Of a DNA stretch of 64,000 bases, positions 43,558-64,000 are shown one piece after another. Source of the DNA: Candidatus Woesearchaeota archaeon (GTDB taxonomy: Archaea > Nanoarchaeota > Nanoarchaeia > Woesearchaeales > JAGVZT01). The first letter of the stretch is position 1. Every line of letters begins with the position of its first letter. Under the pieces are notes generated by a model. That model saw only the letters and a program-made list of their open reading frames with translations, had not been told where the DNA came from and made no database searches. The stretch is taken from positions 117,924 to 181,923 of the forward strand of contig JAFCGF010000005.1 in the NCBI GenBank assembly GCA_017608295.1, written 5' to 3'. Both the position numbers and the translations under genes were made by a program.

Positions 43558-43649
43558 GGGCCTGTAGCCTAGTCTGGATAGGGCGGCAGCCTTCTACTCC
43601 CCAGGGAGAAGCAAGCTGTAGGTCGGGGGTTCAAATCCCTCCAGGCCCA
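43558..43649 (+). tRNA. tRNA-Arg(UCU) with a 17-nt intron; likely integration site
   Basis: Acceptor GGGCCTG pairs with CAGGCCC; discriminator A at 43649. Anticodon stem GCAGC/GCTGT surrounds loop CTTCTA with anticodon TCT at 43593-43595. A 17-nt intron (43597-43613) sits at the usual 37/38 position. T arm is CGGGGG-TTCAAAT-CCCTC-like with one imperfect pair. The integrase gene starts 62 bp downstream in the same direction, so the 3' half of the tRNA (about 43625-43649) is the expected attachment core. No second copy of it is visible in this window. Confidence 0.95.
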
Positions 43650-43711
43650 TAACCCTTTTGGGCACTAAAAAGGATAACATTTAAATAGTCCTAGCTCTTT
43701 TCTCGTCTATA

Positions 43712-44911
43712 ATGAAGGATATCTACAAGTTCGATATGTATCTCCAGAGAAAGATGGAGAGAATCAGAACTGACCCTGAACTCAGCGAGGGAAACAGGGA
43801 GCTAATTCTGCGCTATCTGAAGGAAAGCCAGCTAGGCAAGACCGTCCGCAAGGGGCAGAAGCGCGAGATTGGCCCAGGGAGGAACCTCCAAACTGCTGGC
43901 TACCTGACGATGATGGCAAAGGATTGGTTCAAGAAGGACCTCGACAAGGTGACGCAGGAGGACATGGAGAAGTTCGTCATGGAGCTGAACACTGGTGTCA
44001 TAACGACAAGCAGGAGGAACCCTGGCCACAAAGAAACCCCCTACAGCGATGGCACAAAGTCGAACATCAAGAAGTTCGTCAGAAAGTTCTACAAGTGGCT
44101 CCTTGAGGATAACAAGCGTTTTCCTGACCTCGTCGAGTGGATAGACACCTCACAGAAGGAAACAGAGGTAGAAGCTATCAAGGGGCTGAACAAGGGCGTG
44201 TGGGAGATTGTGGAGATCATACCAGTTCTCAACAAGAAGGCCTTGGTGTGGGCGACCTTCGACAGCGGTTTCAGGGAGGGAGAGATTATCAACTGCGACA
44301 TCAGAGACCTTGAGCAGCGCGAGGACGGGATATTCTACCTCACCTGCAGAGAATCGAAAACAAAGCCCCGTACTGTCTCGCTGCCGCTCTCTTCTGAACT
44401 GGTCGGCAGGTGGCTGGAGAAACACCCTGACAAGGACAATCCAGACGCGAACCTATGGCAGACCTCGCGTCGGCAATTCTACAAGACAGTAAAGCTGTAT
44501 GGGAGGAAAGCTCACAACGCCAACATCACAGTGCACATGCTCAGGCACACTTCAGCGACATATTATGCCCCAAGACTCGACAGAACAACCTTCTGCAAGA
44601 AGTTCGGGTGGAGCTATGCCTCGAAGAGTCCAGACAGGTACATCGATTTCGCCAAGGTCAGCCAGAGCAAAGTGATTGAGGTCGTCAAATCAGAGAAGTA
44701 CGGCAATCTGAAAGAGGACTTCGACCAACTCAAACTCGCGAACAATATCATGAGGGAAAACATGGAGAAGCTCACGAAGAGACTCCAGCACTACGAACAG
44801 GAAGGCCCTATCATGGACAGGGCTATCAGCGGCGACAAGGACCTCATGGACAAGGTCAAGGCGGCAGTCCTTGAGGAACTGAAGAAGGAAGCCGCAGCGA
44901 CCCAGACTTAG
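43712..44911 (+). CDS. Tyrosine recombinase/integrase
   Basis: 399 aa. Core residues are present: Arg in SGFREGEI (near 190), Lys in ESKTKPR, HMLRHTSATYY with the His-x2-Arg pair, and Tyr in KSPDRYIDF. The N-terminal SAM-like DNA-binding domain (about 20-130) precedes the catalytic part. The C-terminal 70 residues are a coiled coil. TATA-like ATTTAAATA is about 35 bp upstream. Position right after tRNA-Arg(UCU) marks the left end of an integrated element that probably includes the genes to its right. Its 3' end overlaps the antisense HNH gene by 4 bp. Confidence 0.9.
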   Translation: MKDIYKFDMYLQRKMERIRTDPELSEGNRELILRYLKESQLGKTVRKGQKREIGPGRNLQTAGYLTMMAKDWFKKDLDKVTQEDMEKFVMELNTGVITTSRRNPGHKETPYSDGTKSNIKKFVRKFYKWLLEDNKRFPDLVEWIDTSQKETEVEAIKGLNKGVWEIVEIIPVLNKKALVWATFDSGFREGEIINCDIRDLEQREDGIFYLTCRESKTKPRTVSLPLSSELVGRWLEKHPDKDNPDANLWQTSRRQFYKTVKLYGRKAHNANITVHMLRHTSATYYAPRLDRTTFCKKFGWSYASKSPDRYIDFAKVSQSKVIEVVKSEKYGNLKEDFDQLKLANNIMRENMEKLTKRLQHYEQEGPIMDRAISGDKDLMDKVKAAVLEELKKEAAATQT

Positions 44912-48142: not shown

Positions 48143-51100
48143 ATGGCCAAGCAACAATTTCGGATTGGTGACCTCGTTCAGCTTAAGGCAGACTCTTCGA
48201 GATGGGGTTCAATAGTTAAAGTTATGAGGCCAATTGCAGGAAAGAAAAGATACCTTGTTTTTGACAGGGACCAGAACCAGCAGCAATTCTTAGAATCTCA
48301 GTTGAGAGCCGTCCAACCCCCAGCCGTTCTCACAAATAGTTCAACCCCTTTAAACGAATTCCGTGCTAAGGTTACTGCGTTCCGATTTTGTAACCCTCTC
48401 GTAGATTCACTTTACTCATTACACTCTGCCAGGATTGACTTTATACCTTTCCAACTTAAGCCACTGATTCGTATTCTAAAAGCAGACCAACCACGCATTT
48501 TAATTGCCGATGATGTGGGGGTTGGAAAGACCATAGAAGCTGGGATAATACTCCGTGAGCTACAAGTGAGGAAGAACATCAAAAGGATACTTATTGTCTG
48601 TCCTAAAGCGCTCGTACATAAATGGCACGCGGAGATGCTGAGATTTGATGAGACGTTTAAGCCTTTGACCTCGGAGGACCTTAAATACTGTTTGCTCGAG
48701 GCCCACAATAATGGTGCATGGCCGGGGCAATATTCCAAGTCAATCATTAATCTCGAGCTATTGCGTCTCACGAACTATCTACATGGCTCAAAAAGCAAAG
48801 GGATTCCAGGACTCCTAGAGTTACAAACTCCCCCAAGTTTTGATTTACTCATTGTAGACGAAGCTCATCACCTTCGATCAACTGCAGGCAATACAAGAAA
48901 ACTTGCGAAGTTCTTGTCCACCATCTCTCAGAATGTAATCTTCTTAACTGCTACACCTATCCAGACCAAATCGCAGAACCTCTTCACTTTGTTAAATTTA
49001 CTCAGGCCAGATATCTTTCGGAGTTTTCGAGAATTCAAAGAGATTGTAGAGCCAAACAAATACTTGAACACAGCTATACGCCATATCAGGTCAAAAAAAC
49101 CAAAAGACACATGGGAGGTTGACGCGGCTAAAGCAATACAAAAGGCCTCCGAGACAACTTATGGGAAGAAGATATCAGACAGATTCGAGAGCTACCAAAA
49201 AGGTTATCATAAACTACGAGAAGGTCCCCTGTCAAATGAAGACAGAGTGAGTCTCCTAAGATATCTAGACGATTTGCATACACTCTCTCAGGTTATGAAT
49301 AGAACAAGGCGTCGTGATATTGGTAAGTTTACTATCCGTGTACCGGTTAAAGTGTCTGTTCCTTTCAATAAGCAGCAACAGGCATTTTACGGAGAATTAC
49401 GGCAATTCCTTAAAGAGCTCTTATCTCACAAATATGGCCCTAAAATAATGAGACTGATTATCGATACATTTGAAAGACAGGCTTCAAGTTGCCTGCCAGC
49501 ATTTATAGCCGTACTACCCAATATAATCAAGAGTGGAAAAATTAGCGAAGAGTCTTTCGCTGATTTTGATTCTGAGCTTATAGCGACCCTACCCTCTCCT
49601 TTGAAAGAAAAAGCTAATCATTTGTTAAATTTGGTAGAATCTCTCCCCCCTGCGGATCCAAAGTTTGATGAGCTGTATAAGATTATTCAAGCCACACTAA
49701 AATCCTCTGGACCCGGTAAATTGATGGTATTTTCCTTCTTTCTGAGAACTCTATCGTACTTGGAACAGCGTCTAACTAAACAAGGCATCAGAGTAGCAGT
49801 CATCAGTGGAAAGGTGCCAGACCGTGAACGAGAACAGATTCGTGAGCGTTTCCGATTACCCAAAAAGAATGCTGATGCCATAGATGTTCTGCTATCTAGT
49901 GAGGTTGGATGTGAAGGCCTGGACTATCAGTTTTGCGACCGCCTTGTTAACTACGATATCCCCTGGAATCCGATGAGGATTGAGCAGAGAATTGGAAGGA
50001 TTGATAGGTATGGTCAGAAGAGTCCAAAAGTTCAAATCTTCAACTTCATCACACCTGGTACCGTTGAGGAGAGAATTTTCTATAGGTGTTTTAAACGGCT
50101 TGGGGTGTTTACAGATACAGTGGGTGATTTAGAAGATGTTCTGGGGGACCTCACTGAGAATCTGAATGCAGTTCTTCTGGACTACTCCTTAAATTCGAAA
50201 GAGGCAGAGAAAAAAGCCATTCAACTTACTGATAATGCTATACGTGCAATGCAAGAACAAAGAAAGCTTGAGGTTGAAACTGAGAATCTCCTAGATGCGG
50301 GAGGTTTATTCACACAGGATTTACAGTCGATGAAGGAGAATAGCCAATATGTCTCTCCCCACGCACTCCAACACTTTATATTTTCATATCTAAAGATACG
50401 GTGTCCTCTTTCGAAAGTTGTTCCAGATTCAAGCAATCCGGCCCGCATTGATATAAAACTAAATGCGGATGAAAAAGAAATCCTGATGAGGGATTTGCTT
50501 CGCGTAGAACACAATGGTAATCAAGTGGACGAATTCAAAGGGTGGTTATCTTCAGATGTACCTGCATACACTGTTACTTTCTCCCAGACCGAGGCACTTG
50601 AGGATAGGCAAGTTCCATTTATTACTCCCGTACATGTGCTTAGCAAAATGGCTATTGATTCTTGGGGTCCTATCAATGCTCCCTTTTTCACACGAGTTAA
50701 GGTTAAAGGCAAAGATACAACCCTCAAACCCGGAACCTACATCTTTGCACTCTATAAATGGGAGGTTCTAGGGGTCCGACCGAGCATCCAATTAGTTCCT
50801 CAATTGTGGGACCTCACTCAAGGTAAGCAGGTGCCTATTCACTTAAATGACCTTCTTCAATGCCTCTTTAGCCACGATGCTGTATCTGTAGATGATGCAT
50901 TTCCGATGAGCACCATTGAGCTTGTGCTCAATGAACTTGACACAGCCATACATGCTCGGAGGCAGGAGGAACTTCACCTGCTGAGTCAGAAATATGGAGA
51001 GCTGTTCAAGCGAAAATTAGCTTCAGTAGAAACCCGCTACAAACTTCAAATAAAGTCAATAGAGAAACAGATACAGTTGATTGGAAACCCGAGCATTAGA

Positions 51101-51226
51101 AGATTAAAGGAATCGCACAAGAGCCGTCTTCACTGGGAACTTGAGAGTAAGAGAGCAACTATAAGTCAGAAGTCCAGACCGGACATTGTTATTGGGTTAC
51201 TCGCGTACGGTGTGATGGAAATATAA
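48143..51226 (+). CDS. SNF2-family helicase (DpdE/DrmD-like)
   Basis: 1,027 aa. An SH3-like N-terminus (FRIGDLVQLKADSSRWGSI) is followed by SNF2 motifs: DDVGVGKTIEAG (123-134), DEAHHLRS, and LTATPIQ. The second RecA lobe has SSEVGCEGLDYQ and WNPMRIEQRIGRIDRYGQ. A long C-terminal region without a known nuclease ends in a coiled coil. Size and motifs resemble RapA/DrmD and the DpdE helicase of 7-deazaguanine DNA-modification clusters. It would translocate on unmodified double-stranded DNA. The assignment to DpdE is by context: all preQ0 genes and a DpdA-like enzyme lie within 10 kb. Confidence 0.8.
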   Translation: MAKQQFRIGDLVQLKADSSRWGSIVKVMRPIAGKKRYLVFDRDQNQQQFLESQLRAVQPPAVLTNSSTPLNEFRAKVTAFRFCNPLVDSLYSLHSARIDFIPFQLKPLIRILKADQPRILIADDVGVGKTIEAGIILRELQVRKNIKRILIVCPKALVHKWHAEMLRFDETFKPLTSEDLKYCLLEAHNNGAWPGQYSKSIINLELLRLTNYLHGSKSKGIPGLLELQTPPSFDLLIVDEAHHLRSTAGNTRKLAKFLSTISQNVIFLTATPIQTKSQNLFTLLNLLRPDIFRSFREFKEIVEPNKYLNTAIRHIRSKKPKDTWEVDAAKAIQKASETTYGKKISDRFESYQKGYHKLREGPLSNEDRVSLLRYLDDLHTLSQVMNRTRRRDIGKFTIRVPVKVSVPFNKQQQAFYGELRQFLKELLSHKYGPKIMRLIIDTFERQASSCLPAFIAVLPNIIKSGKISEESFADFDSELIATLPSPLKEKANHLLNLVESLPPADPKFDELYKIIQATLKSSGPGKLMVFSFFLRTLSYLEQRLTKQGIRVAVISGKVPDREREQIRERFRLPKKNADAIDVLLSSEVGCEGLDYQFCDRLVNYDIPWNPMRIEQRIGRIDRYGQKSPKVQIFNFITPGTVEERIFYRCFKRLGVFTDTVGDLEDVLGDLTENLNAVLLDYSLNSKEAEKKAIQLTDNAIRAMQEQRKLEVETENLLDAGGLFTQDLQSMKENSQYVSPHALQHFIFSYLKIRCPLSKVVPDSSNPARIDIKLNADEKEILMRDLLRVEHNGNQVDEFKGWLSSDVPAYTVTFSQTEALEDRQVPFITPVHVLSKMAIDSWGPINAPFFTRVKVKGKDTTLKPGTYIFALYKWEVLGVRPSIQLVPQLWDLTQGKQVPIHLNDLLQCLFSHDAVSVDDAFPMSTIELVLNELDTAIHARRQEELHLLSQKYGELFKRKLASVETRYKLQIKSIEKQIQLIGNPSIRRLKESHKSRLHWELESKRATISQKSRPDIVIGLLAYGVMEI

Positions 51227-51246: not shown

Positions 51247-53418
51247 TTAAAGGCCACATTCGTCACGGAATTTCTTTAAGCAAACTTCATGCTGGAAAAA
51301 AATCCCCTGCCTATCCATATCCAGTATCCGCTTTCCTCCTCTTGTTTCAATTTCGGGAGGGAATTCATCAATATACTCCATAGCGTCCAGTAGATGGCCA
51401 GGTAAACTCGAAAGAAATTCTTTCATCTTTGGTCCGTTCTCCTTAAAGAATTTATTGATTTGTTCTTTTGGATCCATAAGATCAGCCACTATGATTTTAT
51501 TGATACCCTTCCAATATTTTCTCCAAAACGTATCGACAAAGTAAAATCTAGCATTCCATAGAAGATTTCTCTGATGTCTTTCTAGAGTATCTTCATTGTA
51601 ATCGAATAGTTTTTTAAGTCTGTTCCTCTGCGCAGGTTTTAGCTCAAGATTTAGATTCTGTAATGTAGCTGCAGCGCAAATCGTTAGTAGAATATGTGTA
51701 AAATCTTGGTTAGTCACATGTTGGTTGTGGCCATCCTCTATGTCTCCATAAGTAATCCAAATTGAGTTGTGCAGCTCGCGACTTTCATAAAACTGCTCAA
51801 CTTTGGTTCTTGCAGCATGAGCCAAGTTCTTTGTGGCCATAAGATACTGACCAAGAAGAACCCGTCCAAGTTTATTTGGTGTGCCTGACATTGGATATCG
51901 GGTTCGAGGTTTCTTAGTACCAATGCATGCTTTTAGTTCTTTAAGCGGACGTAATGAAGACCCTCCTTTGAACTTACGTGATTTCCTCCGCCCCCTCTTC
52001 TTCTTTCCGGCGGAGACACTCCTACGGAGATAAAATCTTTCCTTATAGGTTTTAGGAATCCACTTTTCTGTTCCCTTCCAGTGACTGCGCATAGAAACGT
52101 AAAATAGCCCATACCGTTTCAGTTTTTCACGTAGAGTTCTATGAAGTTTATAATTCGCCCAGAGATCTGATGTTTTAATTGCTTCCTGCGTATTACTTGT
52201 CACTGCAATCTTTGATCCTAAGGAATCATTGAATGTCTTCTTAGCGGGATCATATAGGATACATATCTTAACTGGTATAAGGACTTCCGTCAGGTCAGGT
52301 GGGTCAGTCTCCTGCGAAATCTCGTAACACGCTGCAAGCGTTTGTGCGCCGTTCACTATAAACAGATTCGAAAAGATATAGGTGTCCTCCATTCCTTTGA
52401 CCGGAGTAGTTCTACTGGCTGTAGCTGTCAGGCCATTATGGTAGAGTCTAAACCGCTCGGGGTTGTCACTAAGTGTTCTACGAAGCTTGTCTTGGAAGCC
52501 AGTTTTACCTAAAGAGAACCGGACATTTTTCCCAAATAGAAACGGCCCCACATCTTTTCTGGCGAAGTGTGCAACTAGCTGTATGAGTGAGACGTATCCC
52601 ATCACTAGCTCCACTCCATCTTCAACGGATTTTGGTGCTATTATACCCCTAAAGGATAATTGTAAGTCTGGGAGCTCCTTCCAATCACATCTAACATCAG
52701 TAGCCTTGAATATCAGGTCTGGCCTGGAGATGAGGTTAGTGGGAAGCAGAATAAAGTTATCACCAGAGTCAATTCCAACATCTTTTAAGATTGTATCTAC
52801 GGACAAATCAGAGATGTCTGACCGAGTTATGTAAATGGGTTCAATCCTCCACGGGTCATTTTGCTTTTTGAATCTTTCATGTAAGCTTTGGAGATGGGCA
52901 ACCCAGTTCTGGTCCTTAGTTCTTATGGTATGAGTTTCACCCCTAATAATTCTAGCTTTCACGTCTCGTAGGAATTCTCTCAACTCCCGTGCGTCGTCGA
53001 TTGAGGTTCTGTCCTTACATTGAATTGGGTACATTACATGGTTTCTGCTATCAACAACAACCCCATCAATGCCTCCATCGCTATCTTTGGTACAATCGAA
53101 TGATAGGTCATCGACCCGGGAATTAAGTAATTTCTCACGATCATATGCTAATCCAGGAAATCTACATAGAAGTGCTAAGATGAGCAGCCCTTGCTTTTCT
53201 TTCTCGCCGTGTCGTTCAGTCAGTTCATCAATCAGTTCATCTTGAAAAGCATCTGGGGATAATTGCCCACCGATAAAGACATCTTCTTCCTCAACGTTGT
53301 ACAAGTTGAGTCCGTTTAGCTTATCAACATAAGTTTCAATTTCATACGTCTCTTCTAAATCCTCTGGATCAGTTGGTTCTTCATACACCGGTTTTGTTTC
53401 GTCATTTGCCATGTCCAT
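51247..53418 (-). CDS. AIPR (abortive phage infection) protein with N-terminal PD-(D/E)xK nuclease
   Basis: About 723 aa from ATG 53418. An acidic N-terminus precedes a restriction-endonuclease-like motif: DGGIDG near 115-120 and YPIQCK near 131-136, i.e. D-x(n)-QxK. The AIPR part (PF10592) follows, with KNVRFSLG, FRLYHNGLTATA and LFIVNGAQT near 298-361. A basic patch KKKRGRRKSRKFKG lies in the middle. It ends 21 bp from the convergent helicase gene. It is a good candidate for the DNA-cutting component of the island's restriction system. Proteins of this layout occur in phage-defence loci. Confidence 0.8.
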   Translation of the reverse strand: MDMANDETKPVYEEPTDPEDLEETYEIETYVDKLNGLNLYNVEEEDVFIGGQLSPDAFQDELIDELTERHGEKEKQGLLILALLCRFPGLAYDREKLLNSRVDDLSFDCTKDSDGGIDGVVVDSRNHVMYPIQCKDRTSIDDARELREFLRDVKARIIRGETHTIRTKDQNWVAHLQSLHERFKKQNDPWRIEPIYITRSDISDLSVDTILKDVGIDSGDNFILLPTNLISRPDLIFKATDVRCDWKELPDLQLSFRGIIAPKSVEDGVELVMGYVSLIQLVAHFARKDVGPFLFGKNVRFSLGKTGFQDKLRRTLSDNPERFRLYHNGLTATASRTTPVKGMEDTYIFSNLFIVNGAQTLAACYEISQETDPPDLTEVLIPVKICILYDPAKKTFNDSLGSKIAVTSNTQEAIKTSDLWANYKLHRTLREKLKRYGLFYVSMRSHWKGTEKWIPKTYKERFYLRRSVSAGKKKRGRRKSRKFKGGSSLRPLKELKACIGTKKPRTRYPMSGTPNKLGRVLLGQYLMATKNLAHAARTKVEQFYESRELHNSIWITYGDIEDGHNQHVTNQDFTHILLTICAAATLQNLNLELKPAQRNRLKKLFDYNEDTLERHQRNLLWNARFYFVDTFWRKYWKGINKIIVADLMDPKEQINKFFKENGPKMKEFLSSLPGHLLDAMEYIDEFPPEIETRGGKRILDMDRQGIFFQHEVCLKKFRDECGL

Positions 53419-53490
53419 CACTTTATGTAAAACTAACTAACTAACAACAGCTAACTAGAATAGAACTATAAATACCTTTCCAGACCTGAG

Positions 53491-53523: not shown

Positions 53524-54291
53524 TCATTTAGAAATCAAAGCATACGCATTGTGGTTGTGGATGCTCTCGAAGTTCTCACTCTCTACAGAATACCACGTGA
53601 TACGTGCATCCTTATCAAGATGGAGGCTAACAGCCCGGACCATATCCTCAACGAAACGTGGGTTGTCGTAAGCGCGTTCGGTTACGAATTTTTCGTCCTC
53701 GCGCTTTAAGAGAGCGAAAAGTTCGCTACTGGCTTCTTTCTCAACAATCTCCACAATCTCCTCTATCCACACAAATTCTTTGAATTTAATCTTAACTGTG
53801 ACGATACTCCTCTGATTATGTGCTCCTTTCTCTGAAATCTCCTTGGAACATGGACACAGGGTCTTAATGGGCACATTAACCTCGAGGATGAACTCTTCCT
53901 CTTGTCCATTGCCGTTGCCGACGAATCTACAGTGATAATCCATGAGGCTTTTCTTCTTTGACACAGGGGCTTCTTTCTCGATGAAATAGGGGAATGAGAT
54001 TTCGACGTGGGCATTCTTGGCATCTAGCACCTTCTTCATCTTCTGCAACAGGTCGCGCGTAACGTGCATATTAAATATCTCTCCTCGGTGCTCTTCGAGA
54101 ATCTCGACAAAACGGCTCATGTGGGTGCCCTTGAACTGGTGCGGCAAATCTACGTACATGTTGACCTGAGCAACAGTGTGTTGAAGATTCTTTTTTCTAT
54201 CGGCAATAGTGAGCGGCATCAGGATGCCCTTTATCCCGACCTTGTCAATTTTCTTGTTTCGGTCATCTCGAGCATTCTGTAAATCCATCAT
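53524..54291 (-). CDS. folE2: GTP cyclohydrolase IB (FolE2/MptA family)
   Basis: About 255 aa from ATG 54291, one base after the queE stop; a GTG at 54300 is an alternative. The family blocks are clear: GTHMSRFVEIL, CPCSKEISEKGAHNQRS (metal-binding Cys and the His near 158) and the C-terminal VESENFESIHNHNAYA. The enzyme opens GTP to 7,8-dihydroneopterin derivatives. In QueD-QueE-QueC context this is the first step to preQ0; FolE2 rather than FolE supplies dihydroneopterin triphosphate. It is the last gene in the five-gene operon. Confidence 0.95.
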   Translation of the reverse strand: MMDLQNARDDRNKKIDKVGIKGILMPLTIADRKKNLQHTVAQVNMYVDLPHQFKGTHMSRFVEILEEHRGEIFNMHVTRDLLQKMKKVLDAKNAHVEISFPYFIEKEAPVSKKKSLMDYHCRFVGNGNGQEEEFILEVNVPIKTLCPCSKEISEKGAHNQRSIVTVKIKFKEFVWIEEIVEIVEKEASSELFALLKREDEKFVTERAYDNPRFVEDMVRAVSLHLDKDARITWYSVESENFESIHNHNAYALISK

Positions 54292-54292
54292 C

Positions 54293-55003
54293 TCACACAC
54301 CCCTTAACTTATTCCATATATGAATCTGAAGCCGAGACGAGTATCGATACCCATATTGTTTGCACCATCCAATAACACGCTCTTCCTTCTCAATCAGTTC
54401 CTCACGGGAAGTGGCCTCAGGCATGAGGATTATCCTATTGGGTTCAATCGCCCTGGCTGTGATGTACGTCTCGAACACCTCACCTAAGTCACCTACAGAA
54501 TCGACCACGAACTTGAACCAGCAGTTATTACTACCAACAAGATACTCGATGACTGCGGGAATATAGCGCTTGTTTAATGGCACCCCGCTGTTCTTCAGCT
54601 TTGGAGAGGCGTTTATTTGGTCAATTAATTCGTAGAACCCTGGTGCTTCTAGGGTTGCATTAGTCTCGAGCTCGAGGTACACTCCTTCGTCTTTCAATGC
54701 TCTAACAAATGGGATGAGCTGCTTCCACTGCAGCACTGGTTCGCCGCCAGTAATAACGAGGTGCGCCTCCTGAGAGATAAGCTTCTCCCACCACCCCTCC
54801 TTCTTCCAGGATTCTACAATCTCCTCAAAGGACCATTCCCGTCCCTGCTTCCACACTTCAATAGTATCGCAAGGCCACTTGCAGAGGAGGTTGCAGCCTT
54901 GCAGCCGAAGAAATACTGCTGGAACTCCCATAGTGGCTCCTTCTCCTTGAACTGAGTAGAACTGTTCACTTACCTTAATTGAGCCTTTAGGAACGTGTTT
55001 CAT
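54293..55003 (-). CDS. queE: 7-carboxy-7-deazaguanine synthase QueE (radical SAM)
   Basis: About 236 aa from ATG 55003, overlapping the queC end by 17 bp. SVQGEGATMGVPAVFLRLQ precedes the radical-SAM Cys cluster CNLLCKWPC. The spacing is Cx3Cx3C instead of the usual Cx3Cx2C, because a Pro is inserted before the last Cys (about residues 37-45). ITGGEPVLQW is the SAM-binding GGEP motif. The enzyme contracts carboxy-tetrahydropterin to 7-carboxy-7-deazaguanine, the third step to preQ0. Confidence 0.95.
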   Translation of the reverse strand: MKHVPKGSIKVSEQFYSVQGEGATMGVPAVFLRLQGCNLLCKWPCDTIEVWKQGREWSFEEIVESWKKEGWWEKLISQEAHLVITGGEPVLQWKQLIPFVRALKDEGVYLELETNATLEAPGFYELIDQINASPKLKNSGVPLNKRYIPAVIEYLVGSNNCWFKFVVDSVGDLGEVFETYITARAIEPNRIILMPEATSREELIEKEERVIGWCKQYGYRYSSRLQIHIWNKLRGV

Positions 55004-55649
55004 AGTCAATCGGGTCTTCCATGCCTGCTGTCTCGAAAGCTTCCAAGCGTTCTACGCAACTGCCACACTTACCACAAGCCTTTTCACGGCCCTTATAGCA
55101 GGTCCAGGTTAAGCTGTAATCCACTCCAAGTTCTTTGCCTCTGCTAGCGATATATCCCTTGTCTTTGTCTACATAGGGTGCACGGAGTTCGAGTTTGTGC
55201 TCATCACATATCTCAATCACTTTTCTCATGGCATCAACGAACTCTGTCCGGCAATCGTGATAAATCGCGTGGTCCCCTCCGTGTGCACCATAGTAAAGGT
55301 AATCCACTTTTAGACTGATGGCGTATGAAGCTGCTAAAGCGAGCATCACCATATTCCTATTCGGCACGACAGTAATCTTCATATTTTCCTCTTCGTAATG
55401 TCCGTCTGGAACGTCGATGTGTTGTCGTGTAAGGGCACTCTCAGCCAAACTGTTTAATGCTGGTGTTTTCACAGAACGAAAGGGTATACCCAGTTTTTCG
55501 CATGTCCTCCTAGCCATCTCCAACTCTTTCTTGTGCTTCTGCCCGTAATCAAAGCTGAGGGCATAGGTATCGTGGCCCTGACTCACGACATCATAGAGTA
55601 GCGTAGTGCTATCCATGCCACCAGAGAGCACACACACTGCCTTTGTCAT
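54987..55649 (-). CDS. queC: 7-cyano-7-deazaguanine (preQ0) synthase QueC
   Basis: 220 aa. PP-loop ATPase motif LSGGMDST at 8-15 and the C-terminal zinc site CYKG...CGKCGSC are complete, as is FDYGQKHKKEL. QueC converts carboxy-deazaguanine with ammonia and two ATP to preQ0. The start overlaps the queD stop by 4 bp. Here preQ0 is the presumed substrate of the neighbouring DpdA-like enzyme. Confidence 0.97.
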   Translation of the reverse strand: MTKAVCVLSGGMDSTTLLYDVVSQGHDTYALSFDYGQKHKKELEMARRTCEKLGIPFRSVKTPALNSLAESALTRQHIDVPDGHYEEENMKITVVPNRNMVMLALAASYAISLKVDYLYYGAHGGDHAIYHDCRTEFVDAMRKVIEICDEHKLELRAPYVDKDKGYIASRGKELGVDYSLTWTCYKGREKACGKCGSCVERLEAFETAGMEDPIDYETRS

Positions 55650-56068
55650 TTCTCTTCACCCCTGTATGATGCAGAGGAGGTAGGTGTTTCCCAGAGGATA
55701 ACTTCAACCACGGCGAGGTCTGCTTCCCTTAGTTGATTGTAAATCCATTTCGAGAGGTTCTCGGCTGTTGATTCAAAATCCATAATCTGGAGTTGCAGTG
55801 GGCGCTCTTGAGTCTCGCTGATTTTCTGCAGCGCTGCTACCAAAGGGTCTCCCTTTGAAAGCGTTAGGGCATGGTCAAGCTTTTCGAGAACCGTCTCTTT
55901 GACGATTTTCTTCAAATCGCCGAAGTCCATGACGAAGCCGTTCTTATCTGGCTCACCCTCAATGGTCACCTGTAACTTGTAGGTGTGGCCGTGCAGGTTG
56001 TAGCACTTGCCTTTGTGAAATGGCAATCTGTGCCCCATATCAAATGTGAAGTCTTTTGAGATTCTCAT
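55646..56068 (-). CDS. queD: 6-carboxytetrahydropterin synthase QueD
   Basis: 140 aa. The QueD/PTPS signature is present: MGHRLPFHKGKC with the catalytic Cys in CxxxHGH (CYNLHGHTY), then MDFGDLK, LDHALTL and the Glu in WETPTSS. QueD turns dihydroneopterin triphosphate into 6-carboxytetrahydropterin. It overlaps the RHH gene and queC by 4 bp each. Confidence 0.95.
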   Translation of the reverse strand: MRISKDFTFDMGHRLPFHKGKCYNLHGHTYKLQVTIEGEPDKNGFVMDFGDLKKIVKETVLEKLDHALTLSKGDPLVAALQKISETQERPLQLQIMDFESTAENLSKWIYNQLREADLAVVEVILWETPTSSASYRGEEK

Positions 56069-56250
56069 GGTTCTTCCCTCTTGTCAACGAGCCGACCGTG
56101 GCGAGCGTCAATCTCACCCATAAAGTCTAGCATCTTCCGTAAAGCGGTTCTCACTGCATCTGAGAAGTTGACGAACTTCTTATCGTCACCAACGTGTTCA
56201 TTCACATCGTTAATGATGTGCTGCGGTATGTTGACAGTAACCTTTGGCAT
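56065..56250 (-). CDS. Ribbon-helix-helix regulator heading the preQ0 operon
   Basis: 61 aa. KVTVNIPQHIINDVNEHV is the RHH beta strand and first helix; FVNFSDAVRTALRKMLDF the second helix. TATA box ATATAAAA (56295-56302, minus) lies 45 bp upstream. As the first gene of the operon and divergent from the DpdA-like gene, it probably autoregulates both sides. The inverted repeats it would bind were not identified with certainty. Confidence 0.8.
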   Translation of the reverse strand: MPKVTVNIPQHIINDVNEHVGDDKKFVNFSDAVRTALRKMLDFMGEIDARHGRLVDKREEP

Positions 56251-56294
56251 AGTATTCCCCCCGTGTGGCTAGGGCCATCCACTCATAAGGGGGC

Positions 56295-56373
56295 TTTTAT
56301 ATCGGGGCTTTTTATGTCTTTCGCTCTGCAAGTCGGAAATCTGGCGGTCTCAAGGAGAAAATAGATTTAAATA
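56295..56373. promoter_or_regulatory. Divergent promoters of the preQ0 operon and the dpdA-like gene
   Basis: On the minus strand ATATAAAA (56295-56302) serves the RHH-queD-queC-queE-folE2 operon. On the plus strand TTTAAATA (56366-56373) lies 25-32 bp before ATG 56398 and makes the dpdA-like transcript leaderless. Both transcripts start within 120 bp, so one regulator can control precursor synthesis and DNA modification together. Confidence 0.6.
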
Positions 56374-56397
56374 AACACTACAAGTTCTCTTATTGCG

Positions 56398-58338
56398 ATG
56401 ACTATAGAGTTCTCAGTAAAAGGGGGAGGGCTTGGCCAGTACCGCCAAGGCACCATACGATACAAGGGGTCCAACTTTGAAACCCCCCTGTACTTCCCAT
56501 CCCTAAATATCATGACAGGCCCCCCAACAGGTAGCGGCATCTACCAAAACGGAGGGTTCCATCGCTGGCTGAAGATACTGCATATCCACAAAAGTGAACG
56601 GCCGGTGTTCCTTACACAGGTTCTTCATTTTCTTGAGTATGGTATCTATCGTAAGGAGAAGCTAGCAGCGTGGACTCAGAAGTCCTTTGAGTCCTGGATT
56701 AATCAAAACCTCAAAAAGGCCAAGAAACCCCTCATTATGTTTGATTCGGGCGGATTTCAATTCATGAATGACGTAAATGATGACCTCAAGCGGTTTCTTA
56801 AGGATCAACTAGAGATAAATGTTGACACTGGCGACATATTGGATTTACAGCTACAATTGGGTGCCCCCCTCTTGATTTCTTTTGATTATCCCCTCCAACC
56901 GAATCTAGCCCTCGCTGAAGCCAGAAATAGGTCTCAACAGAGCATAAAGAACTGCATACTCACGCTTCAAAGGCTAGCCAAACAAAACACCTCGCCTTTG
57001 CCCTTTTTAGCAATACATGGACGAACTAAGGCTGAGGTCACGGCTTACTGCAGAAAGCTCTTCGCTGACATTGAGGCAAAGGGTCTTCAAAATGAACGTT
57101 TTGGTTTAGCATTGGGTTCGATGGTTCCCTTTGCCTTTGGGGGGAGAACTCGAGACTACTTGAAAATTCTTCAGTGCACAGCCGCACTTAAGGATGCTAT
57201 CCCAAAAGAGTACGGTGATGTGCCTGTCCATGTCCTAGGAATGTCAGGAGCAATTATGCCTGCGCTAATGCTCTTGGGCGTTGACAGCTTCGATGGCTCA
57301 TCATCCACCATGGCTGCTACGAACCTGAAATATGATAGTCTCAATGGGGGAACTAAGTTTCACTCTGTCAAAGATGGGCGTCTGAGCTGCCAGTGCCGGG
57401 GGTGCAAGATACTAAATGAAACGGGTTTGGACATGGCTCAAATCCATAAAATCCTTCAAACAGGGGAGCGGGTAGAATTTGACTTCCTCACAGAACACGA
57501 CCCTCGGCCCCCACTCAATTTACCTCAGAATGACCATCGTTCCGCCTTGTACGCGTTTGTCGCATATCATAACTATTCCGTAATCCTCGAGCGTCTTGCC
57601 AACTATAAGAAGGCTCTCAGAGAAGGGGACGGTATTATTGATATCTTGAAGAATTCCAATATGGGTAGTCGCTCAGAACACTCTAGGGTTCTAAAATTTC
57701 TCGACAAACGCATTCCTGACTTGAAGCTCAGGAAAAAGATTCCAATCGAGGTTCAAGGTAAGCTCACAAGATATGGCGTTCGGAACACGCAGAACGATAT
57801 CAAAACCCCTCCTTTTTCCTTAAGATACAATCGGAACAGCTTTACGGTCCCCTCACACTATAAGCCCCCAAAAGGGAAGGACATTTGTTTGATTGTCCCA
57901 TGCTCAAAGAAAAAACCCTACTCCAGTTCACCAAGTCACAAGGCAATGTTTGATTTCCTCACATCACATTTGGGTGGCGAGCTCAAGAGGATTCACAAGG
58001 TAACTTTGTCGGGGTTGTATGGGCCTGTGCCCGAGGAGTACGAGAATCGAGACTGCGTTGCGGGCTATGATTATATGCTCAAAGAAAGCCCAATTTATGC
58101 TAATCAAAGGGATACTGTTACTAAGAGACTCACTAACTATCTGCAACAACAGGGCGCTCGCTATAGGGCAGTGTTGGGATACTGTACTAAGGAACCATAT
58201 CGTCGCATCATAAGAAATTCCTTCGAACAATTGCCCGGCGGTTTCGAGTCCTACCAACTAATCCCAAAGGACACAAGTAAGAACCTAACGGATGAAAACA
58301 ATTTGAGAATCTTGTTAAACAGGCTTCGTTCTCTCTGA
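56398..58338 (+). CDS. dpdA: DpdA-like transglycosylase fused to an ArcS-type domain
   Basis: 646 aa. The N-terminal part is a tRNA-guanine-transglycosylase (TIM-barrel) domain in the DpdA style. FDSGGFQ (115-121) carries the Asp of the TGT active site, LGVDSFDGSS (293-302) the nucleophile region, and CQCRGC (331-336) with His391 the zinc site. LQLGAPLLISFDYP is DpdA-like. The C-terminal part has PCSKKKPYSSSPSH (501-514), an exact match to the ArcS motif PC-x3-KPY-x2-S-x2-H. ArcS converts preQ0 in tRNA to archaeosine. No PUA domain follows, unlike in archaeal TgtA and ArcS. I infer insertion of preQ0 into DNA and its conversion to deoxyarchaeosine by one protein. An alternative is an unusual tRNA archaeosine enzyme. 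Confidence 0.8.
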   Translation: MTIEFSVKGGGLGQYRQGTIRYKGSNFETPLYFPSLNIMTGPPTGSGIYQNGGFHRWLKILHIHKSERPVFLTQVLHFLEYGIYRKEKLAAWTQKSFESWINQNLKKAKKPLIMFDSGGFQFMNDVNDDLKRFLKDQLEINVDTGDILDLQLQLGAPLLISFDYPLQPNLALAEARNRSQQSIKNCILTLQRLAKQNTSPLPFLAIHGRTKAEVTAYCRKLFADIEAKGLQNERFGLALGSMVPFAFGGRTRDYLKILQCTAALKDAIPKEYGDVPVHVLGMSGAIMPALMLLGVDSFDGSSSTMAATNLKYDSLNGGTKFHSVKDGRLSCQCRGCKILNETGLDMAQIHKILQTGERVEFDFLTEHDPRPPLNLPQNDHRSALYAFVAYHNYSVILERLANYKKALREGDGIIDILKNSNMGSRSEHSRVLKFLDKRIPDLKLRKKIPIEVQGKLTRYGVRNTQNDIKTPPFSLRYNRNSFTVPSHYKPPKGKDICLIVPCSKKKPYSSSPSHKAMFDFLTSHLGGELKRIHKVTLSGLYGPVPEEYENRDCVAGYDYMLKESPIYANQRDTVTKRLTNYLQQQGARYRAVLGYCTKEPYRRIIRNSFEQLPGGFESYQLIPKDTSKNLTDENNLRILLNRLRSL

Positions 58339-58341
58339 GCT

Positions 58342-59859
58342 TCAGCCACCCGCCTTAAGCAATTCTGACAATACCAGTAGGTGGAGCACTTGCTCTCCTA
58401 TTTGTAGGCGGTATCTTCCCCGGAGGATTTTCTTTGCGCTAACTGGTTTTCCTAGATAGCTCTCAGGTAATATGCCATTGTTCCAACAGGCCAGTGCACG
58501 AAGTTCTGATAAATCGTGGTGCTGCTGGAAGAAGTCGCTCGCAGACACTACAACATTCATGAAGAATGGTTGACTATTTCCAAATCCTTTTGCTACGAAG
58601 TTTTTCTCTTTTGGATGAAATTCTACGAGTTCAAAAGGTAGGCTTCCACCCAAAGAAGCCAATGCAACTAGGTTCATTGCAACTTCTAGCTCATTGGTGG
58701 GATTGGTAAGAATAGTCTGCGCTTCCGAGACACGTTGCAATCTTGCCTTTGAGTATTTCTTCGTCCTCGGGAGTTTGTTTAGTTCTTTGAATCTCTTAAA
58801 CCAAGGATCAGTTAGGATTTCATCACGAATATAGTTTCGCACTACTTTCTTCACGGCCCTGAATACCCTGTTTCTCTGGATAGTGTTTCTATTCGCATTC
58901 AACTGAAACTGGTTACAGTTGACAATGAAGTGGAAACTGTGATAACCAACATCAACAATTTCATTGACGCGCTCGATATTGATGTAGTCCTTAGCGAACC
59001 AAACACCCATCAGGTACTTTGCGCTGTCCGTCAAGATATGCTTGGATTTAGCTCTCTTACCCGCTACAGCTCCAATGATTTCAATCTTTATGCCCGGAAT
59101 CTTGAGGATTTTGGGACCATAGTGCTTACACATGAATTGAGAGCGCTCAGGTTGATATCTCGCCCGATAGCCCATAGAATCTCTTCGAGGTAAGCGATGC
59201 TTGCCACTCATAGTTACAATGGAATCCTCGGGCTTCGCATTTTCGTTCAACCATTTCTCCAGACCTGATGCATCAATCTGTATCTGGAATGGTTTCGCTT
59301 TTCGGTTAAATAGCGGCTTCGAACTTCCCCCGATGGTATTCCAAAAGATATACTCGCGGAGTGAACTAAGTGTGAACTGTTTGTAACGGTTTTCAAAAAA
59401 TCCCACTACGGTGACTTTAGAGTGGGTGTGTTTTTTATTAACAATCTTCCTTGTGATTACGGGCTCTGGGAGAGACTGATTCCGCAAATTCAGCCATGAA
59501 TCCTTTACCTTCACCTTGTATCTCACGCGCTGCCCATTCTCCTTGGACACACTGTCAATGTAGAACTCATCTGACCGATAACAAATTTTAGTGCCGTAGC
59601 CTTTCTCCCCAATCTGTTTACTCTTATCAGAGAACCCCAGATTGAGAAAATTATGAATGTCCTGGGCAGTCATCCCACGACCATTATCCTTTATCTCAAT
59701 TACAAGACGCTCAAACTCGTCCACATTAGTCTTAATCCATACCTTTGATGCCCCGGCGTCATGAGCGTTACTTAGAGCTTCTCTAATCAACTCCAATGGG
59801 TTCTTGAAGTTATTGGATATCTCATATAAAGCCCTAACAACGTTCGCCCGTGGTTTCAT
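58342..59859 (-). CDS. GHKL (Hsp90/MutL/histidine-kinase-type) ATPase
   Basis: 505 aa. The Bergerat ATP-binding fold is clear at the N-terminus: N box ELIREALSNAHDAGAS, G1 DNGRGM, and G2 GEKGYGTKICY. Residues about 200-330 may be a transducer domain. The C-terminal third is helical without a known motif. The protein is like MORC- or paraMORC-type ATPases used in DNA compaction or defence. It ends 4 bp from the convergent dpdA-like gene and lies downstream of the SMC-like ATPase genes on the same strand. A role as DNA clamp or sensor is inferred. Confidence 0.75.
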   Translation of the reverse strand: MKPRANVVRALYEISNNFKNPLELIREALSNAHDAGASKVWIKTNVDEFERLVIEIKDNGRGMTAQDIHNFLNLGFSDKSKQIGEKGYGTKICYRSDEFYIDSVSKENGQRVRYKVKVKDSWLNLRNQSLPEPVITRKIVNKKHTHSKVTVVGFFENRYKQFTLSSLREYIFWNTIGGSSKPLFNRKAKPFQIQIDASGLEKWLNENAKPEDSIVTMSGKHRLPRRDSMGYRARYQPERSQFMCKHYGPKILKIPGIKIEIIGAVAGKRAKSKHILTDSAKYLMGVWFAKDYINIERVNEIVDVGYHSFHFIVNCNQFQLNANRNTIQRNRVFRAVKKVVRNYIRDEILTDPWFKRFKELNKLPRTKKYSKARLQRVSEAQTILTNPTNELEVAMNLVALASLGGSLPFELVEFHPKEKNFVAKGFGNSQPFFMNVVVSASDFFQQHHDLSELRALACWNNGILPESYLGKPVSAKKILRGRYRLQIGEQVLHLLVLSELLKAGG

Positions 59860-62462: not shown

Positions 62463-63107
62463 ATGTATAAATACGAATTCTACGCGAGACAGAGCATGGC
62501 AACCCACCTCATCACTACATTCTTCCACTTCGAACCATTCAAAAAGGTCTTCTGGGAAGTGAAGCCTGACTCTGTGTATCTCTTTACTCAAGAGGAGGAA
62601 AATGCAGAAAGCAGGCAGGAACTGAAGAAGCTTGACAAGGCACTGCGGGAATTCTCAGGTCTGTTCAAGCAGAATATAATCAAAGTGCCGATGTATGGAA
62701 TTCACGAGGTTGCTACAAAAGCCGTGGAGGTCATTGACACCATCCAGCCGAAAAATGACGACAGGGTGATTATCAACATCACTTCAGGAAGGAAGCCCAT
62801 GGCAATCGGGTTGCTTTATGGTGCCTATGCGCGGCCAAAGCTGGTGAACCAGATTATGTACTTGGCTGAGGAACACAAAGAGGTCATCCAGCTCCCAAAG
62901 ATGTACTTTAATCTAAGCAGAAGTCAGAAGCAGCTGCTCATCCATATCAGGGAGCACGGCACTGCCACCATCAATGAGATGGCTGATGCACTCGGGATAT
63001 CACGGAGCATGCTATACAAGAATCTAAGCGACCTCTCGGACCAGGGCCTCCTCCAAGAGAAGGAGGACTGGGAGCTCACTGATTTCGGGAGGATAGCTGT
63101 GTTGTAA
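62463..63107 (+). CDS. CARF-HTH transcription regulator (Csa3-like)
   Basis: 214 aa. The Rossmann-like CARF domain contains RVIINITSGRKPMAIGLLYGA (about 101-121), the ligand loop that binds cyclic oligoadenylates in CRISPR regulators. The C-terminal winged HTH is at about 155-210 (TATINEMADALGISRSMLYKNLSDL). No cas genes or CRISPR array are in the window. It is divergent from the SMC-like ATPase operon and 1 bp before the 98-aa gene. Control of the island by a nucleotide signal is an attractive inference. Confidence 0.75.
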   Translation: MYKYEFYARQSMATHLITTFFHFEPFKKVFWEVKPDSVYLFTQEEENAESRQELKKLDKALREFSGLFKQNIIKVPMYGIHEVATKAVEVIDTIQPKNDDRVIINITSGRKPMAIGLLYGAYARPKLVNQIMYLAEEHKEVIQLPKMYFNLSRSQKQLLIHIREHGTATINEMADALGISRSMLYKNLSDLSDQGLLQEKEDWELTDFGRIAVL

Positions 63108-63735: not shown

Positions 63736-63892
63736 TTATTCCTCTGCGACTGAGCCCATGTTCTCAGCTGCGCTCCAATACCCCTCACCTATCACCACGT
63801 GGTCCAGCACCTCGATGCCGAGCAGCTCCCCTGCCTTCATGAGGTTCTTTGTGATGACCATATCCTCTTCGCTTGGCTTTGTTGCGCGTGGA
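63736..63892 (-). pseudogene. radC: Downstream exon of a RadC-like (JAB-domain) gene interrupted by a group II intron
   Basis: Reading the minus strand gives TPRATKPSEEDMVITK, then NLMKAGELLGIEVLDHVVIGEGYW and a stop at 63736. This aligns with the end of RadC/JAB domains, where HNHPSG-x-x-x-PS-x-x-D is followed by 'LKEAGELLGI-LLDHIIIG'. The JAB metal motif HxHPSG must lie upstream of the intron, beyond 64000. If splicing works the gene is functional; it is listed as broken because the frame is cut at DNA level. Confidence 0.75.
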
Positions 63893-64000
63893 GTAGAGAA
63901 AGGAGCGCCATACAGGGCTCACGCCTTGCGGTCTCTCCCTTCCCTCTCCCCGAACCGGACGTGCGCCTTTCAGCGCATCCGGCTCTCCATCAGACACTTA
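63893..64000 (-). mobile_element. 3' end of a group II intron (domains V and VI)
   Basis: Domain V occupies 63952-63985: a 34-nt hairpin on the minus strand with the catalytic AGC triad at its 5' base, GAAA tetraloop and a two-base CG bulge. Domain VI follows (63894-63951). The intron appears to end CTCTAC at 63893, directly before the RadC-like exon. GTGTCTGATGG just upstream of domain V fits the end of domain IV. The reverse transcriptase would lie beyond 64000. The exact 3' splice site is estimated. Confidence 0.85.

Follow-up and report, generated by a model that had tools for sequence, protein, structure and literature searches.

A transglycosylase fused to an ArcS core beside a preQ0 operon points to a probable variant 7-deazaguanine DNA-modification system

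The locus analyzed here has parallels in two described pathways: the bacterial Dpd island (DpdA-K), whose products in DNA are dPreQ0 and dADG, and the tRNA archaeosine pathway of TgtA and ArcS with RaSEA. Archaeosine in tRNA is described as confined to Archaea (PMC5485725), and ArcS of T. kodakarensis is reported to accept a nucleoside but not the free base and to yield preQ0-lysine, with RaSEA being required to reach archaeosine (PMC11298593). Outside cells, Vibrio phage nt-1 is said to encode DpdA2 together with ArcS, and its DNA holds dPreQ0, dADG, and dG+ (PMC6884629). Further parallels are found in defence: in type IV CBASS, a TGT-family enzyme has been reshaped so that it binds a protein N-terminus carrying NDG (PMC11996544), while MORC and paraMORC ATPases (MORCs being united by an S5-domain motif) are described in prokaryotic restriction-modification operons (PMC2292703).

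In the window, i.e., the whole stretch of 64,000 nucleotides that was analyzed and that likely belongs to a DPANN archaeon, we found a preQ0 operon that diverges from a single protein carrying both a transglycosylase (TGT) domain and an ArcS core (Table 1), as an earlier note on this DNA had proposed. The four preQ0 genes overlap successively, and the RHH-like ORF overlaps the start of queD. QueC is of the canonical kind (199 bits against a cut-off of 150.3, compared to only 30 bits for QatC), whereas QueE departs from its relatives in carrying a CX3CX3C motif (GCNLLCKWPC) where all 10 relatives of the set have CX3CX2C. Reading by eye, we noted an archaeal TATA-like TTTAAATA (56366-56373) 24 bp 5' of the fusion ATG and, on the minus strand, a TATA-like TATAAAAG (56294-56301) 43 bp 5' of the RHH-like ORF.

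Table 1. Features of the locus, in window coordinates; residue numbers refer to the fusion protein.
Feature	Position	Strand	Basis or remark
tRNA-Glu	43558-43649		candidate island edge
Tyrosine integrase	43712-44911	+	
SNF2 helicase, DrmD/DpdE kind	48143..51226	+	candidate member
AIPR/AbiU-like protein	51247..53421	-	candidate member; weak homologue directly 5' of fusion in L014
folE2 (GTP cyclohydrolase)	53524..54300	-	FolE2 325 bits
queE-like radical SAM	54293..55009	-	only sub-cut-off QueE matches, 73 bits vs 260
queC (7-cyano-7-deazaguanine synthase)	54987..55649	-	QueC 221 bits; above NCBIfam cut-off
queD (6-carboxytetrahydropterin synthase)	55646..56068	-	above QueD cut-off
RHH-like (ribbon-helix-helix) candidate regulator, 61 aa	56065..56250	-	assigned by eye
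Predicted divergent promoter region	56251..56397		147 bp, RHH-like ORF to fusion start 56398
TGT-DUF5591 fusion, 646 aa	56398..58338	+	profiles, alignment, and structure model
Fusion transglycosylase domain	56398-57627 (about residues 1-410)	+	
Fusion linker	residues 449-468		pLDDT <50 in predicted structure
Fusion ArcS core (DUF5591)	57847-58236 (residues 484-613)	+	
Fusion C-terminal tail	33 residues past DUF5591 match		without PUA
GHKL (MORC/GyrB/MutL/HSP90-like) ATPase, 505 aa	58342..59859	-	convergent with fusion, 3-bp gap

Both active-site sets that had been read from the sequence were in place in this one polypeptide. The TGT profile PF01702 matched residues 110-367 (E 2.5e-11), and PF17884 (DUF5591) matched the ArcS core at E 9.9e-15. 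In the fold search, the archaeosine TGT was the closest solved fold, and because the TGT half fills that list, the ArcS half was identified by profiles. Our alignment of 56 copies (the window protein, 3 database proteins, 3 plasmid copies, and 49 of 52 genome fusions) retained in every row D116, D299, the nucleophile equivalent (the second Asp in GVDSFD, which lines up with its counterpart in the GVDLFD of 1iq8), and the ArcS-motif residues C502, P507, Y508, and S511, with H514 kept in 50/56, even though these copies are just 27-37% identical to the window protein. The window protein also has the zinc/TGT residues C331/C333/C336/H391 and, exactly as previously noted, the motif PC-x3-KPY-x2-S-x2-H at residues 501-514. 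Five aligned ArcS N-domains, by comparison, all had an altered or absent DSGG and in three cases incomplete zinc ligands, while the Asp of the nucleophile column was present in 5/5. As the ArcS core reached only 55 bits to Pfam, its chemistry may differ from that of ArcS. The absence of a PUA domain was upheld as well: a hidden PUA was rejected for the window fusion given no Pfam match and a tail too short to hold one. Among the 56 copies, the post-core tail spans 0-104 residues (median 38), with the longest in L045 (78) and L050 (104), the PUA scan concerning the window protein.

The DpdA label given earlier to the TGT half did not hold. The NCBIfam DpdA model NF041059 (cut-off 200 bits) gave no match to the window fusion at E 0.05 or to three haloarchaeal fusions at E 0.001, whereas two canonical DpdA proteins scored 281 and 483 bits in the same scan. 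The fusion TGT domains formed one clade (SH-aLRT 97). Grouping the fusion with DpdA, which had two rows in the tree, was weakly rejected (p-AU 0.035). Placing it together with short TGT, DpdA, and L061/62 was rejected (p-AU 0.0014), as was a grouping with TgtA (p-AU 0.003), and one that united it with short TGT, TgtA, and ArcS was not rejected (p-AU 0.059); these values, from trees holding 29 and 19 of the 56 fusions, are uncorrected for the number of tests and refer to clades named after the first tree. Membership in canonical DpdA was hence rejected by profile scan and tree, and because the TGT domain sits in a separate clade, "DpdA-ArcS" is not quite the right name. Membership in tRNA TgtA was likewise rejected by the lack of a PUA, the tree, and a TIGR00432 score of 44 bits against a cut-off of 350; the ArcS equivalog NF040592 gave 69 bits against 440.

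What did stand was the contrast drawn with the bacterial DpdA/DpdC make-up; here the TGT domain and ArcS core share one chain. The Dpd island resembles our locus in that a TGT-family enzyme is accompanied by preQ0 genes, in being host-encoded and patchy, and in the helicase, PLD, and DUF6884 partners that occur in fusion relatives. It differs in that the fusion TGT falls below NF041059 and outside the DpdA rows of the tree, the ArcS core is in cis, a MORC-like ATPase recurs in fusion loci, and a general profile scan found no DpdB among the scanned proteins. Compared to the TgtA and ArcS pathway, with which it shares both domain families, the exact ArcS motif, and the closest solved fold, the fusion is one polypeptide, lacks a PUA, and adjoins preQ0 genes.

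The same fusion was encoded at 52 of 60 genome loci, three of these copies being partial or broken (L048, L049, and L051), and at two haloarchaeal plasmid loci. Because the same two-domain protein recurs at 52/60 loci, the pairing of TGT and DUF5591 is far beyond chance. At least three relatives were found by phmmer, and the family was recovered by genome scan; the alignment omits the three defective copies and the non-fusion loci L057-L064, and ORFs at fetched loci, read from their first start codon, could be overlong. The fusion is not restricted to archaea: carriers include Poribacteria, Cyanobacteria, Chloroflexi, and other bacteria. Within one class, the fusion was patchy (20/145 genomes). 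Searches of 46 genomes, which omitted the fusion loci L006, L007, L011, L044, L048, and L051, revealed an ordinary separate ArcS in 21/22 haloarchaeal hosts and RaSEA in 22/22, whereas none of 21 bacterial hosts had another DUF5591 protein or RaSEA above cut-off. Weak sub-cut-off RaSEA-model matches occurred in three bacterial genomes (G001, G012, and G015); as a control, three of 14 control genomes matched below cut-off only. L014, labelled Proteobacteria, was counted in neither group because TgtA, ArcS, and RaSEA of archaeal type are encoded in its genome, G007, and two other archaea (G040 and G044) lie outside both counts.

Parts of the family have DNA-handling neighbours, namely DpdK-like, DpdJ-like, DUF6884, MORC-like, GmrSD/HEPN, and PLD-SNF2 genes. 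A separate DUF6884 gene lies beside the fusion at 20 haloarchaeal loci. There were 8 DpdJ-like calls; the one in L055 probably represents the DrmA helicase encoded there, and the L001 protein scored 161 bits against the NCBIfam DpdJ cut-off of 800. Among 15 Poribacteria loci, we found no profiled partner except a GIY-YIG match in L012 and L020, the only two with a PLD-SNF2 helicase directly upstream of the fusion, and an Fe-alcohol-dehydrogenase-family gene lies nearby in 8/15. L005, the nearest tree relative of the window fusion, has no profiled partners, preQ0 genes, or ATPase within 10 kb. In the window itself, Pfam, NCBIfam, and PADLOC scans covered nine proteins (46.9-59.9 kb), and no DpdJ-like, DpdK-like, DUF6884, or second TGT gene was found at 44-64 kb. 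The SNF2 helicase scored higher with DrmD (332 bits, cut-off 610) than with DpdE (209 bits, cut-off 500) and has distant relatives directly 5' of the fusion in L012 and L020; the AIPR-like protein is linked to L014 at E 2e-5 only.

The convergent ATPase shows both GHKL ATP-binding motifs and fold, with MORC, HSP90, and GyrB so nearly tied in Z for its structure model that they are not separable. At 21 fusion loci besides that of the window, a homologue falls inside the fetched flank, and all 20 fusion-bearing genomes among the 145 encode a MORC/GyrB-like ATPase; fusion and ATPase co-occur in haloarchaea (in the Fisher test, G084, with ATPase fragments only, was scored as lacking it). Like the ATPases of MORC/paraMORC operons, which lie near helicases and nucleases, the window protein is a GHKL ATPase, yet it is paired with a deazaguanine transglycosylase, a word absent from the main text of PMC2292703.

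Our best reading is a variant 7-deazaguanine DNA-modification system in which preQ0 is inserted and then modified in place by ArcS chemistry. That the fusion is a two-step enzyme of this kind, with the MORC-like ATPase probably helping, we consider likely, at roughly 60%. FolE2, QueD, QueE, and QueC would supply preQ0, the TGT domain, by way of a covalent intermediate at D299, would replace G in DNA with preQ0, and the DUF5591 core would then act on the inserted base, which, we propose, would block the reverse exchange. The immediate product would be a preQ0-lysine base, from which RaSEA-bearing hosts could form the deoxyarchaeosine proposed in the earlier note; where RaSEA is missing, the fusion product could be the lysine-bearing base. 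The ATPase may remodel or clamp DNA for the fusion or for restriction partners, while variable helicase/nuclease partners (DpdJ/DpdK-like, GmrSD with HEPN, or PLD-SNF2) would attack incoming unmodified DNA, the window SNF2 and AIPR genes perhaps being such partners. A defence role common to the haloarchaeal and bacterial relatives is likely. We only tentatively entertain the fullest version, a cellular system of archaea and bacteria in which a single enzyme swaps G for preQ0 and conjugates lysine and in which, without RaSEA, the lysine-base serves as a self mark read by MORC, helicase, and nuclease partners.

Alternatively, the fusion might be a compact tRNA archaeosine enzyme that replaces TgtA and ArcS at tRNA G15 in a reduced, DPANN-like archaeon: both halves come from tRNA-pathway families, the fold match is an archaeosine TGT, and the nearest named relatives of the window TruD belong to Woesearchaeota/Nanoarchaeota, groups with reduced genomes. 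Descent from tRNA enzymes is possible, as the clade joining the fusion and short TGT with TgtA and ArcS was not rejected. We nevertheless judge a tRNA function improbable, considering the ArcS and RaSEA that accompany the fusion in haloarchaea, its occurrence in bacteria, its patchiness, the rejected clade with TgtA, and the DNA-handling neighbours. The earlier proposal of DNA as the substrate gains indirect support from the separate ArcS genes and these neighbours; DNA is the substrate that we infer.

If DNA is modified, the core might still be a DpdC-like nitrile hydratase giving dADG, or be silent and leave dPreQ0, with lysine or G+ never being formed. DUF6884, DpdC, and YaaA look related (the DUF6884 protein of L032 matched DpdC models at E 1.6e-4 and YaaA at E 0.0023), although their tie to DUF5591 consists of sub-threshold scores only; the nt-1 DNA holds dADG and dPreQ0 besides dG+, and the bacterial hosts had no RaSEA above cut-off. 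We regard this reading as unlikely, given that four ArcS-motif residues are invariant despite the low identity, and that the separate DUF6884 gene at 20 haloarchaeal loci would be redundant if the fusion core were itself a DpdC-like nitrile hydratase. Very improbable, in our view, is that the TGT fold was recruited to bind or attach deazaguanine on protein, as in type IV CBASS Cap10/Cap9, which likewise brings TGT-fold and QueC-family proteins into defence and whose Cap10 (9ntn) was matched by the fusion-family profile at E 2.9e-5. Here, the base-exchange catalytic and zinc residues are conserved, the locus has a full preQ0 pathway and an ArcS core, its QueC is canonical rather than Cap9-like, and no nucleotidyltransferase domain or CD-NTase partner was found among the nine scanned proteins.

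If the two-step DNA reading is true, host-encoded 7-deazaguanine DNA modification would exist outside the DpdA lineage in bacteria as well as archaea, a single chain would carry out the two chemical steps, and the co-occurrence of a MORC-like ATPase with a transglycosylase would find a reason. How ArcS homologues act on DNA could be tested in haloarchaea, which include several named strains and in which the predicted detectable nucleoside is dG+ or a deoxy-preQ0-lysine adduct, a DNA base with an amino acid. In literature titles and abstract openings, we found no mention of a TGT-DUF5591 fusion; a prior description is possible.

The tRNA-Glu and integrase (43558..44911) possibly mark the left edge of an integrated island, with no repeat >12 bp within the window as a second att copy of the tRNA. 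A phage origin of the fusion was rejected, as a search of 50,697 phage records (E 1e-5) gave no relative of the window protein and a viral_contigs scan confirmed none (12 pattern matches). Phage nt-1 differs in being viral, in its separate genes, and in a DpdA2 distant from the fusion TGT (26.6 bits), in a comparison covering two stretches (79.5 of 247.5 kb). Its ORF392, guessed by position to be ArcS, had no match to the ArcS core and was rejected; it starts with MCGLF and is presumably a class-II amidotransferase. Separately, one Staphylococcus phage record weakly matched a cyanobacterial fusion (E 0.007), and a haloarchaeal ArcS gave three weak Sulfolobus virus matches (E 0.003-0.008).

The earlier note's observation that a preQ0 operon stands divergent from a fusion of a TGT domain and the ArcS core was borne out. 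The locus at 53.5-58.3 kb of the window holds a complete operon (folE2, queE, queC and queD, with a 61-aa RHH-like ORF as its first gene), separated by 147 bp from a divergent gene for a 646-aa protein in which a TGT domain is joined to DUF5591, which forms the core of archaeosine synthase ArcS. Archaeal TATA-like boxes, read by eye, lie on both sides of the intergenic DNA, and a gene for a 505-aa GHKL ATPase (MORC-like) adjoins the fusion gene in convergent orientation with a gap of 3 bp. Among named organisms, Woesearchaeota and Nanoarchaeota have the TruD proteins closest to that of the window (about 40% identity), while unnamed relatives reach up to 66%; the host is therefore likely to belong to the DPANN archaea. 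The window's QueE-like protein carries CX3CX3C (GCNLLCKWPC), as opposed to CX3CX2C in 10/10 relatives of the set; the difference reflects a variant of the radical SAM motif or else an error in sequencing.

A single scan of genomes, one for each species, yielded 60 loci, 52 of them fusions by a two-profile test (three of these partial or broken), and three further copies were found on two haloarchaeal plasmids. The 52 fell in Poribacteria, Cyanobacteria, Chloroflexi, Deinococcales, Thermodesulfovibrio, a Kuenenia MAG and a MAG labelled Proteobacteria, as well as in 22 haloarchaea, one Thermococcaceae MAG and one Thermoplasmata MAG; the system is not specific to archaea, which corrects the earlier reading. 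Carriers include the haloarchaea Halorubrum coriense DSM 10284, Halorubrum lipolyticum DSM 21995 and Natrinema mahii and the cyanobacterium Planktothrix paucivesiculata PCC 9631. The Proteobacteria label (genome G007, locus L014) is doubtful; this genome encodes archaeal-type TgtA, ArcS and RaSEA and gave no bacterial-strength Tgt match. No relative was confirmed in the viral_contigs scan, and phage records searched with the window protein as query returned none. A haloarchaeal ArcS query gave weak core-domain matches (E 0.003-0.008) to hypothetical proteins of Sulfolobus spindle-shaped viruses (JQ287645.1 / OP999027.1, H12-H14).

The fusion is unlikely to be the tRNA enzyme and is not a canonical DpdA by membership. 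All 29 fusions used in the TGT tree formed one clade (SH-aLRT 97), and in a smaller tree 19 fusions grouped with the haloarchaeal TGT-only paralogue, the short TGT (support 96). Clustering with tRNA TgtA, which the earlier note had named as evidence against its reading, was rejected in the smaller tree (p-AU 0.003). The DpdA identity proposed there was not borne out by membership, and a fusion+DpdA clade was weakly rejected (p-AU 0.035, smaller tree). A single clade of fusion, short TGT, TgtA and ArcS was not rejected in that tree (p-AU 0.059). The deep order is soft: DpdA is represented by two rows, branches are long, and the groups were named once the first tree had been seen. Canonical DpdA plasmid clusters of Salinigranum and Nostoc also carry a second short TGT. 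The former, like the window with its Csa3/CasR-like regulator, has an annotated Csa3; in the latter, the N-terminal part of DpdA resembles YaaA/DUF6884.

According to PMC11298593, T. kodakarensis ArcS adds lysine to preQ0 in RNA, to the preQ0 5'-nucleotide and, slowly, to the preQ0 nucleoside, and does not modify the free base; TGT does not swap the lysine adduct back out, and RaSEA makes archaeosine after the ArcS step. From these substrate facts we infer insertion followed by the ArcS step, on polymer and in one protein: the fusion would insert the base, and the ArcS step would then take place on the polymer within the same protein. Genomic context points to DNA as the substrate, and a dual function with both steps on DNA is the best reading of the fusion. 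We searched 46 host genomes, among them 22 haloarchaeal (by record title) and 21 bacterial. A second, full-length ArcS-type DUF5591 protein occurs in 21/22 haloarchaeal hosts (the exception being G024). RaSEA passes its cut-off in all 22, and each also gives TgtA-like matches, in pieces for two of them. In the bacterial hosts, 21 in all, DUF5591 is matched by the fusion only; RaSEA does not reach its cut-off in any of them, three giving weak matches below it. In RaSEA-bearing hosts the fusion product may proceed to dG+; in bacterial hosts it may remain the lysine adduct or, alternatively, the ArcS core may hydrate the nitrile to give dADG. Deoxyarchaeosine is just one of three plausible products, which corrects the earlier reading.

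Neighbourhoods were counted over 55 fusion loci (the 52, two plasmid loci and the window), many of whose flanks end at contig ends. A MORC-like ATPase lies near the fusion in 22, DUF6884 in 20, QueC in 10 and a DpdK-like PLD in five, DUF6884 being the dpdC domain and PLD dpdK according to PMC11888242. A profile built for this analysis called DpdJ-like helicases in eight; DpdJ was the best PADLOC match for the four scanned, and the call in L055 is likely DrmA. The window layout recurs in L031, L032, L034 and L043, where 106-142 bp separate the fusion from a divergent queD ORF. Seven cyanobacterial loci (L015, L016, L021, L023, L025, L027, L028) pair the fusion with GmrSD-like genes, six of them also with HEPN genes (domain names taken from L028). 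In L016, from Nostoc sp. MG11, the matches to the core of the fusion, to GmrSD and to HEPN are each split over two pieces of ORF, giving the look of a cluster in decay. The TGT-only paralogue is present in 20 haloarchaeal loci, and a broken piece of it in L048. A PLD-SNF2 helicase stands immediately upstream of the fusion in two Poribacteria (L012, L020). Apart from the L048 piece, the other 13 Poribacteria loci have no partner by profiles, nor does L005, the closest relative of the window, and a uniform defence role is therefore disfavoured.

A split counterpart of the fusion is found in two further archaea. In an Archaeoglobales MAG (L061), NurA and HerA are followed in a row by a protein of 1413 aa, which matches STAND weakly and below cut-off, and by a DUF5591-only protein of 175 aa and a TGT-only protein of 373 aa whose genes overlap. 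Hydrothermarchaeum (L062) has the same overlapping pair, preceded by proteins of comparable size. The split form supports paired action of the two activities in a setting of DNA handling.

Coordinates of features in the window and in related loci
Feature	Position	Strand	Remark
tRNA-Glu, then tyrosine integrase 62 bp on	window 43558-44911		near G+C drop from 0.51 to 0.42
QueE-like protein	window 54293-55009		
TGT-DUF5591 fusion	window 56398-58338	plus	
GHKL ATPase	window 58342-59859	minus	
CARF-wHTH regulator, Csa3/CasR-like	window 62463-63107		PADLOC CARF3 score 165 bits; a few kb past the ATPase
Group II intron match, Rfam RF00029	window 63888-63987	minus	at window edge
DpdA plasmid cluster, Salinigranum	L003:10428-16029		
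DpdA plasmid cluster, Nostoc	L004:9578-15759		
Fusion locus, Nostoc sp. MG11	L016:10049-13582		
Split pair and neighbours, Archaeoglobales MAG	L061:2863-11537		
Split pair, Hydrothermarchaeum	L062:9244-10876		

No second att copy was found within the window for the tRNA-Glu and integrase site, a possible island edge.
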